A stretch of DNA of 64,000 nt. It comes from Rubrivivax sp. SCN 71-131. GTDB taxonomy: Bacteria > Pseudomonadota > Gammaproteobacteria > Burkholderiales > Burkholderiaceae_C. The notes below the pieces were generated by a model, which was given only the letters and a program-made list of their open reading frames with translations, had not been told where the DNA came from and ran no database searches. Of this stretch, positions 16,728 to 19,519 are shown piece by piece; within the stretch, counting starts at the first letter, position 1, and each line of letters opens with the position of its first letter. Where the stretch lies: contig MEFD01000017.1 of the NCBI GenBank assembly GCA_001724995.1, positions 440 through 64,439 of the forward strand, in the 5' to 3' direction. The translations under genes were made by a program, and so were the position numbers.

Positions 16728-17204
16728 TCAGGACGCGCGCGACGACAGGCGCTGCGCAGCACGTTCGAACAGGCCGCCCAGTTCCAGCCGCACGGCCCGG
16801 CGCAGCGCATGCGATGCGGCGCTCGGGTAGGCCGACGTCGGGTAGGGCACGCGCAAGCGCACCAGCCACAGCCCGGGCGCCAGACGGGGAAGTTGCTCGC
16901 CCATGACCGTGCGGATCTGGCGGCGCAGCAGGTTACGCGTCACGGCCCGCCGCGCGTGGCGCTTCGGAACCACGCTGCCCAGCCAATACCCTTGCGGGCC
17001 CGCTTCGGTCGATTTATCCACAGACGGCTCGCCAGGTTCGGTCAAATCTGTGGATAAATCAGTGGATGAAGCGTGGACGAGCGCACGCGCCGGCCCTGTC
17101 GGCAAGGCTGACAGATGATGCACGGCGAAGTGAGCGCTTCGCGAGCACATGGGCGTGGCGAGCAGGCGCTGGAAGTCGGCCGGTCGATGCAGGCGGCCGA
17201 TCAT
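16728..17204 (-). CDS. rnpA: ribonuclease P protein component
   Basis: [31 protein letters not shown]...[26 protein letters not shown]: RnpA RNR-like motif; has an extra [20 protein letters not shown] segment. Confidence 0.92.
17011..17060. promoter_or_regulatory. two perfect DnaA boxes in inverted orientation inside rnpA
   Basis: GATTTATCCACAGA (17011-17024) and TCTGTGGATAAATC (17047-17060): perfect 14-bp inverted repeat containing TTATCCACA and TGTGGATAA. Confidence 0.75.
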
Positions 17205-17366: not shown

Positions 17367-17752
17367 GATGGGGCTCCGGTAGCGGGTAGGGAAGAGGAAG
17401 AAGTCGAACGGGGGACTCGCCGCTTGCGGCGCAACGCGCGGGCTTGGCCCGCGGGGCCGGCGCGCGCACGGGCAGGGTGAAGGCGCAACTGCAGCGTGCC
17501 CGACGCGCCATGGGCGCTGTCGCGTACCAAACCGCCAAAGCCAAAACCGCCTAAGCAACCGCCTAAGCAACCGCCTAAGCGCAAGTCCGAAGAACCCTCT
17601 ATTAGAGCAAGAAAGCCGTTTAGGGTCAAACACTTGCACCATGGCTTGCGGCTTCGGGCGGGCTTGACCCCAGGTCGAAAACTGTGGATAACTGCGCCTC
17701 GCCGGGGCTCGGAGGACAGCCTTGGCAAGTTCCTGATCGATACCTTTCCACA
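17367..17752. other. oriC: probable chromosomal origin (oriC) region, rpmH-dnaA intergenic
   Basis: Divergent rpmH and dnaA, DnaA box TGTGGATAA at 17683-17691, tandem 12-bp repeats. Confidence 0.6.
17545..17580. repeat. three perfect tandem 12-mers AACCGCCTAAGC
   Basis: 17545-17556, 17557-17568, 17569-17580, preceded by a degenerate copy (aaccgccaaagcc). Confidence 0.95.
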
Positions 17753-19258
17753 ATGACAGAAGACCTCTGGCAGGCCGGCTGCGAGCGTCTGGCAGCGCAA
17801 CTGCCCGAACAGCAGTTCAACACCTGGATTCGCCCCTTGCCCCCCGCCCAGCTCGTCAGCGACGGGCCCGATGGGGTGGTGGTGTGCCTGCGCGCGCCCA
17901 ATCGATTCAAGCTCGACTGGATCCGCTCGCAGTACGCCGGACGCATCGAGGCGACGCTGGCCGAGCTTGCCGGACGCCCGGTGCGGCTGGATCTGGCGCT
18001 GGCGCCGCGCGAACCCGCCCCTGCGGCAGGCCCGTCCGCCGCGGCAGGCGCCGCAACACCCGCCGTCGCGTCCATCCTCGCCTCGGCGGCTGCCGCGACC
18101 GGCACCCGCAGCATCACCGAGACGCTGGCGAGCGGCGGCTTCACCGGCTCATCGGCCGAGCGCCGCAACGGGCTGCCGAACGCGCCCGCGCCGGCTGCCG
18201 ACGCTTCCGGGCGCGAGCGCGCCGCGCCGCCGATGCCGCGCCACAAGCTCAATCCGGCGCTGACCTTCGAGACCCTGGTGGCCGGACGCGCCAACCAAAT
18301 GGCGCGCACCGCGGCGCTGCACGTGGCCGGCGCCCCCGGGCAGATGTACAACCCGCTCTTCATCTACGGCGGTGTCGGCCTGGGCAAGACGCACCTCGTG
18401 CACGCGGTCGGCAATGCGCTGCTGAAGGACCGGCCCGATGCGCGCGTGCTCTACCTGCACGCCGAGCAGTTCATCAGCGACGTCGTGCGCAACTACCAGC
18501 GCAAGACCTTCGATGAGCTGAAGGCGAAATATCACAGCCTGGACCTGCTGCTCATCGACGACGTGCAGTTCTTCGCCGGCAAGGAGCGCACGCAGGAGGA
18601 GTTCTTCAACGCCTTCGAGGCGCTGCTGGCCAAGCGCGCGCACATCATCATGACCAGCGACACCTACCCCAAGGGCCTGGTCGACATCGACGAGCGCCTC
18701 ACGAGCCGTTTCGACGCCGGACTCACGGTGGCCATCGAGCCGCCCGAGCTCGAGATGCGCGTGGCGATCCTCATCGCCAAGGCACGTGCCGAAGGCGCCG
18801 AGATGCCCGAGGACGTCGCCTTCTTCATCGCCAAGAACGTGCGCGCCAACGTGCGCGAGCTCGAAGGCGCGCTGCGCAAGGTGCTGGCCTACAGCCGCTT
18901 CACCCACAAGGAGATCCACATCGCCCTCGCGCGCGAGGCCTTGCGCGACCTGCTCTCGATCCAGAACCGGCAGATCTCGGTGGAGAACATCCAGAAGACG
19001 GTGGCCGACTTCTACAAGATCAAGGTCGCCGACATGTACAGCAAGAAGCGCCCGGCGAGCATCGCGCGCCCGCGCCAGATCGCCATGTACCTGGCCAAGG
19101 ACATGACGAAGAAGAGCCTGCCCGAGATCGGTGAGCTCTTCGGCGGGCGCGATCACACCACCGTGCTGCACGCGGTGCGCAAGATCGGCGACGAGCGCCA
19201 GCGCAACCCGGAGCTCAACCAGCAGTTGCACGTGCTCGAACAGACCCTCAAGGGCTGA
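17753..19258 (+). CDS. dnaA: chromosomal replication initiator protein DnaA
   Basis: [29 protein letters not shown]...[22 protein letters not shown]...[16 protein letters not shown]. Confidence 0.99.
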
Positions 19259-19316
19259 TGGGCCGCGCGCCGCCAACACCGCGGACAGCGTGGACAAGGC
19301 TGGGGGCAAGAGTCGG

Positions 19317-19332
19317 ACAAGTCCGGACTTGT
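19317..19332. promoter_or_regulatory. 16-bp perfect palindrome ACAAGTCCGGACTTGT in the dnaA-dnaN intergenic region
   Basis: Direct reading; abuts DnaA-box-like TTGTGCACA (19329-19337, 8/9 to TTATNCACA). Confidence 0.6.
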
Positions 19333-19519
19333 GCACAGCCCGGGATCGTGGCGCGCGCTTGCCCACAATCCGGCGACGCCGGGGCAGTCGTTGCGTCCAC
19401 AGGGTTCACGGCAGCGTAAATCCCTGTCGGAACAGGCGAAAATAAGCTTTTCCCCAGCTTGGCGCGGCCTCTACTACGGCTACCAGGCGTTTCAAAGAGA
19501 AAACAGCAAGAGGAAGCCC

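Follow-up and report, generated by a model that had tools for sequence, protein, structure and literature searches.

A putative DnaA-binding array in the rnpA coding sequence, conserved at the dnaA locus of a clade of Burkholderiales

Clusters of DnaA boxes have been described in the autoregulatory operators of dnaA (E. coli dnaAp1/p2, B. subtilis and others; PMC8203912), in datA and DARS of E. coli (PMC4585315) and in the split oriC of B. subtilis and H. pylori (PMC4285127). In E. coli, DnaA favours pairs of sites with a gap of 2-3 bp (PMC11317965). The nearest precedent for the sites reported here are boxes 7 and 8 of the Bdellovibrio oriC, at the 3' end of dnaA, which are bound by DnaA in vitro (PMC5124646). 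We analysed a stretch of 64,000 nucleotides from Rubrivivax sp. SCN 71-131 (the window), in which DnaA boxes lie inside rnpA, and compared it with its relatives.

The gene that hosts the sites (16728-17204, minus strand) encodes a protein of 158 aa, identified as the RNase P protein by its PF00825 match (E = 5e-9) and by the fold of its AlphaFold model, which matches solved RNase P proteins. As the first-pass annotation had noted, it contains a perfect 14-bp inverted repeat (GATTTATCCACAGA at 17011-17024, TCTGTGGATAAATC at 17047-17060; spacer 22 bp) with two perfect DnaA boxes, TTATCCACA, facing each other. Box 1 (17049-17057, minus strand) is read as the codons TTA TCC ACA (L-S-T) and box 2 (17014-17022, plus strand) lies in the codons NNT GTG GAT AA (S-V-D-K); their starts are 35 bp apart and 26 bp separate them (17023-17048, minus strand). 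The degenerate copy reported next to them is also real (AGTGGATGA, or TCATCCACT on the coding strand; 17061-17069, minus strand): it matches 7/9 positions of the consensus and is located exactly 3 bp upstream of box 1. The resulting TCATCCACT-gat-TTATCCACA places two same-strand 9-mers at the gap of a double DnaA box (2-3 bp), as in only a minority of relatives; a partner with at least 6/9 matches at the 3-bp gap was found in 17/103 of them, and almost none at neighbouring gaps. Having at least two close 9-mers that match TTATNCACA in a conserved arrangement, the rnpA site is, by sequence, a DnaA-box cluster.

The whole 3.92-Mb assembly contains 6 strict boxes, a reversed control pattern likewise 6, and dinucleotide shuffles of the window contained none. 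As the assembly total equals that of the control, the clustering and not the total is unusual; with six positions placed at random, the chance of finding two within 44 bp of each other is about 3e-4. A chance origin of the pair is ruled out by its conservation in 104 species and by the codon statistics described below. A mobile palindromic element was rejected as well: the paired pattern occurs once in its own genome and in 3 of about 398 other genomes of the order, with unrelated spacers. Of the three strict boxes elsewhere in this genome, one (C13:278144-278152; L285:645-653) lies about 110 bp upstream of a gene that resembles the replication-restart gene priA.

Our rnpA sample comprised 63 species of the same genus and 110 genera of the family. 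Nine same-genus genomes gave neither an rnpA nor an rpmH match (in a search without positive control), so the region is probably absent from those assemblies. The facing pair was found at the same place in rnpA in 63/63 same-genus species with an assembled gene, always with box starts 35 bp apart, and the same motif is present, with nearly always identical spacing, in 41 other genera. In the RnpA loop of all 63 species, L-S-T (or a close variant) is followed by nine variable residues and x-V-D/E; a 9-mer similar to a DnaA box and the partner that faces it encode this motif. One further genus (L164) has a strict box 2 and a damaged box 1; about 31 kb of rnpA from the other 68 genera (without L164 and L127) contained only one box with at most one mismatch. 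Boxes of this quality number 129 in 29.6 kb of rnpA, and dnaA coding DNA (47 kb), rpmH (8.5 kb) and the DNA following rnpA (36.7 kb, 600 bp per locus) had none; further box clusters lie in the dnaA-rpmH and dnaA-dnaN gaps. In a DnaA tree the carriers of the pair form one clade (support 0.87), in which 101 of the 102 members scored have the site, L164 being the exception, and the sister clade of 51 is without any site (support 0.98). A single gain is the simplest history of the sites.

Two variants were observed beside the common arrangement. An in-frame extra box 21 bp upstream of box 1, coding for a second L/F-S-T, gives a three-box array in L095, L105, L108, L120, L149, L159, L170, L173, L176 and L180. 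A genome from another family of the order (L274) has a single strict box at nt 128 of its rnpA open frame, which is unpaired and possibly due to chance.

Codon usage at the boxes was compared with 33,412 codons from the same loci. Threonine is encoded by ACA in 62/62 sequences (4.6% expected), leucine by TTA in 37/60 (0.08% expected) and aspartate by GAT in 53/62 (13.6% expected). The wobble T before GTG is present in 63/63 sequences and spans nine amino acids, NNT codons amounting to 6.3% overall. A conserved motif elsewhere in RnpA showed ordinary codon mixing. Three species have a serine to cysteine exchange giving TTATGCACA, which retains the box because the changed position is free in the consensus TTWTNCACA. 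Probabilities calculated under independence are overstated, the species being related, but with about 42 genera represented there is no doubt about the direction. To judge from these codons, the conservation of the box letters exceeds anything that the protein could require and selection acts on the DNA, which answers the question of DNA-level codon conservation that the first-pass annotation had raised. Since the letters are kept far more strictly than the protein needs, one stretch of the gene appears to do two jobs, and the proposed dual use of this DNA finds support in the codon statistics and in the position of the sites within the RnpA loop insertion of every carrier.

The loop concerned (16985-17110, minus strand; about residues 32-72, between the strands 26-31 and 73-78) was delimited by pLDDT and by the length from H29 to G76. 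It is long and predicted to be disordered, with an AlphaFold pLDDT of 55-61 at residues 41-70 versus about 87-98 elsewhere. The 46 residues between the conserved H29 and G76 compare with 11-13 (median 11) in 30 other families of the order, so that the segment was correctly described as an insertion relative to ordinary RnpA. Median intervals are 28 in the non-carrier genera of the family, 42 in the same genus and 48 in the other carriers. As the non-carriers of the family already have an enlarged loop, the loop was long before the sites came and became longer after. The loop probably offered tolerant ground, which the sites occupied and lengthened. The idea that the insertion exists to host the sites is thus only partly supported, with additional length in carriers but an enlargement found already in non-carriers; likewise, insertion and boxes co-occur in every carrier, whereas enlarged loops are also present in genera without boxes.

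Of the two functions first suggested for the sites, an origin or a dnaA regulatory sequence, the regulatory one remains the better. An origin that had moved into rnpA was rejected: a canonical, probable oriC, not part of the rnpA array, is located in the dnaA-dnaN gap (19301-19486, plus strand), about 2.3 kb from the rnpA sites, and these persist where the origin has left. It has the same box offsets as in relatives, with degenerate boxes at 19301 (minus), 19329 (plus) and 19448 (plus) and, after a GC-rich spacer, a DnaA-trio-like CTCTACTACGGCTACCAG at 19469-19486. This layout is fixed (boxes at -150, -122 and -3, followed by a GC-rich spacer and by CTCTACTAC trios) and matches the basal unwinding system of PMC8287927. 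DnaA-trios and an AT-rich unwinding region next to boxes were found in the dnaA-dnaN gap and not at rnpA; the 9-mers TTATCCACAG and TTGTCCACAG of the rnpA array are also used in the origins of the family.

In a specific motif search, whose reversed control gave no matches in 42 genomes, seven carrier genera had the origin element at a distance of about 2 kb from rnpA. In nine it lay, at predicted positions, 46-147 kb from rnpA or on another contig; the remaining carrier genera had no match to this strict motif. The rnpA array is retained in 9/9 carrier genera with a relocated origin and hence does not move with the predicted replication start, and non-carrier genera share this origin layout but have no array. 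Both observations indicate that the array is tied to the dnaA-rpmH-rnpA locus. The box 21 bp upstream of box 1 is present in eight of the nine relocated-origin genera versus none of the seven, an association with few events behind it since the nine mostly belong, probably, to one subclade. GC skew is too weak in this clade for fine mapping; it changes from slightly negative to slightly positive around 16-24 kb of the window, and was loosely consistent in one relative and uninformative in another.

The relocated predicted origins (L275-L283, in G477, G574, G503, G542, G483, G539, G305, G473 and G546, respectively) have the same layout and DnaA-trios. In several genera, the distance between dnaA and the predicted oriC amounts to tens or hundreds of kb, or the two are on separate contigs, so that the origin appears to have moved repeatedly and kept its architecture. 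Five genera have two origin-like elements in the same orientation, 2-6 kb apart (L277 in G503, L278 in G542, L280 in G539, C91 of G497 and C18 of G544), as if the origin had been duplicated.

The gene upstream of rnpA in its operon, rpmH (ribosomal protein L34; 17226-17360, minus strand), is without DnaA boxes. In the gap between rpmH and dnaA (17753-19258, plus strand), a strict box (17683-17691, minus strand) overlaps the -10 of a putative dnaA promoter (-10 GATAAC at 17687-17692, -35 TTGACC at 17664-17669, spacer 17), which was assigned by eye and pattern; a consensus promoter scan called no promoter at these elements. A box-like CTTTCCACA (17744-17752, plus strand) abuts the dnaA ATG at 17753. 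The box on the putative -10 (TTGAC-N-TGTGGAYAA) was detected in 57/63 species of the genus, 20/41 other carriers and 0/69 non-carriers, and TCCACAATG at the dnaA start codon in 39/63, 19/41 and 1/69, respectively. These boxes are nearly confined to carriers, which places the remodelling of the dnaA regulatory region at roughly the branch that also gained the rnpA array. The promoter-overlapping box, a sequence pattern, lends indirect support to a putative DnaA-dependent repression of dnaA, as in autoregulatory operators. The rpmH-dnaA gap also has a short CGCCTAAGCAAC-like tandem repeat of about three copies (17545-17581), which is also called as terminator-like on the minus strand.

Constraint on the peptide or on the RNA accounts poorly for these data. 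A functional L-S-T...V-D motif in RnpA, selected as protein only, would fit the conservation of these residues amid an otherwise variable loop, but it is hardly tenable: synonymous codons are almost never sampled, the wobble T is invariant irrespective of the amino acid, the loop is predicted to be disordered, and the codon analysis already contradicts such selection. It is also very improbable that the inverted repeat acts as an mRNA hairpin controlling rnpA translation or stability. Although the window RNA folds better than its shuffles (z = -2.6) into a long stem, one central pair (columns 5-38) is broken without compensation in 29/98 relatives and a second pair (4-39) in 4, flanking pairs are often broken, and the few both-side changes lie mainly at helix ends. 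Variation tracks the DnaA consensus instead, and we rejected the hairpin since its core has no compensatory support.

Among explanations that involve DnaA itself, it is improbable that the array forms the remote part of a multipartite origin, as in the split origins known from B. subtilis and H. pylori. Three box clusters flank dnaA in the genus, and the distance of 2.3 kb to the unwinding element compares with the length of split origins already known (PMC4285127); against this stand the persistence of the array in the nine genera with a distant origin and the non-carriers that share the origin layout without it. The main rival, which we consider unlikely but less so, is a titration or nucleotide-switch site similar to datA or DARS, which would sequester or inactivate DnaA upon replication of the locus and leave the adjacent genes unregulated. 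The boxes are strong, clustered and strictly spaced, they lie near dnaA and about 2-150 kb from the origin when both are on one contig, and chromosomal titration near the E. coli origin has recently been supported (PMC12371093). Some genera have three-box arrays, three boxes also forming the DARS core that promotes ADP release from DnaA; here such arrays are known from sequence. However, datA requires five boxes and, between essential ones, an IHF site, and none of the known elements lies in coding DNA (PMC4585315), whereas a search of all 63 rnpA genes gave no IHF consensus. Nor would a titration site need to stay at one codon position of one gene beside dnaA.

We tentatively read the segment at 17.01-17.07 kb as a putative DnaA-binding array in the rnpA frame, within the part that encodes the predicted-disordered beta-hairpin loop, tied to this locus and serving as an auxiliary operator for dnaA and/or the divergent operon, and regard this as close to an even call. 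Comparison among relatives gives the array a definite location, a fixed geometry, DNA-level constraint, a single clade and independence from the position of oriC; that DnaA binds it, we infer. Most likely, the array would work with the dnaA-promoter boxes to control dnaA or the divergent operon. In relatives, weak box-like 9-mers are enriched between the boxes at offsets 11 and 23 from box 1 (3.52 and 3.67 matches versus 2.35 +/- 0.13 in codon shuffles), which leaves gaps of 2, 3 and 3 bp, in keeping with the preference of E. coli DnaA (PMC11317965); among carriers outside the genus, taken by themselves, the second maximum lies at offset 22. Two strong facing boxes at a fixed 35 bp, with weak 9-mers filling the gap in many relatives, could thus be bridged by a DnaA oligomer across 2-3 bp inter-site gaps. 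Such an oligomer would help to repress dnaA and/or control the divergent rpmH-rnpA-yidD-yidC operon, possibly by DNA looping across about 0.6 kb to the dnaA promoter boxes (median 611 bp). Several points count against an operator. The weak inner 9-mers are not evident in the species of the window, box 1 is TTRTCAACA in 28/42 other carriers, and DnaA sites far within a transcribed gene are unusual as operators. Promoter remodelling and array gain fall at roughly one point of the tree, so that their co-occurrence amounts essentially to a single event.

We found no published description of DnaA sites in rnpA in the open-access literature. A broader interpretation, which we hold with somewhat more reserve, is that the codons of an essential RNase P protein contain a DnaA control element that has not been described before and is fixed throughout a clade. 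A replication-control site would then have lengthened the loop of this protein and determined its sequence; this site would couple DnaA level or replication of the locus to the expression of dnaA and/or the operon for ribosome, RNase P and membrane insertase. The region offers a clean natural case of a DNA stretch with a protein-coding role and, very probably, a second role in replication control, and the comparative evidence suffices to tell the two constraints apart at the level of single codons. This case suggests that DnaA sites can stay at the dnaA locus after the origin departs, and carriers with a relocated origin provide a natural experiment that separates DnaA regulatory sites from origin sites. 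Such regions can mislead origin finders, which may ignore boxes in genes, as well as protein analyses, which may take disguised DNA for 'conserved' peptides.

Compared with described systems, the array shares boxes at the dnaA locus, and in carriers a box on the putative -10, with the dnaA autoregulatory operators (PMC8203912), but it lies about 0.6 kb off, in the second gene of the divergent operon and under dual constraint. Like datA and DARS it consists of clustered, precisely spaced boxes outside oriC; unlike them it is coding and has other box numbers, and the IHF on which datA and DARS2 depend has no consensus site in rnpA (PMC4585315). The partner 9-mer 3 bp upstream of box 1 in the window and some relatives, and the weak inner sites at 2-3 bp gaps in relatives, resemble the double DnaA box, which is a tandem pair, whereas the conserved rnpA core is a facing pair 35 bp apart (PMC11317965). 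Box clusters on both sides of dnaA are also known from the split oriC (PMC4285127), but an unwinding element is missing from the rnpA cluster, which stays in place where the origin has moved. The Bdellovibrio boxes likewise lie in coding sequence of the same gene cluster; they adjoin the origin, whereas the rnpA boxes are 2.3 kb from it and persist when it moves (PMC5124646).
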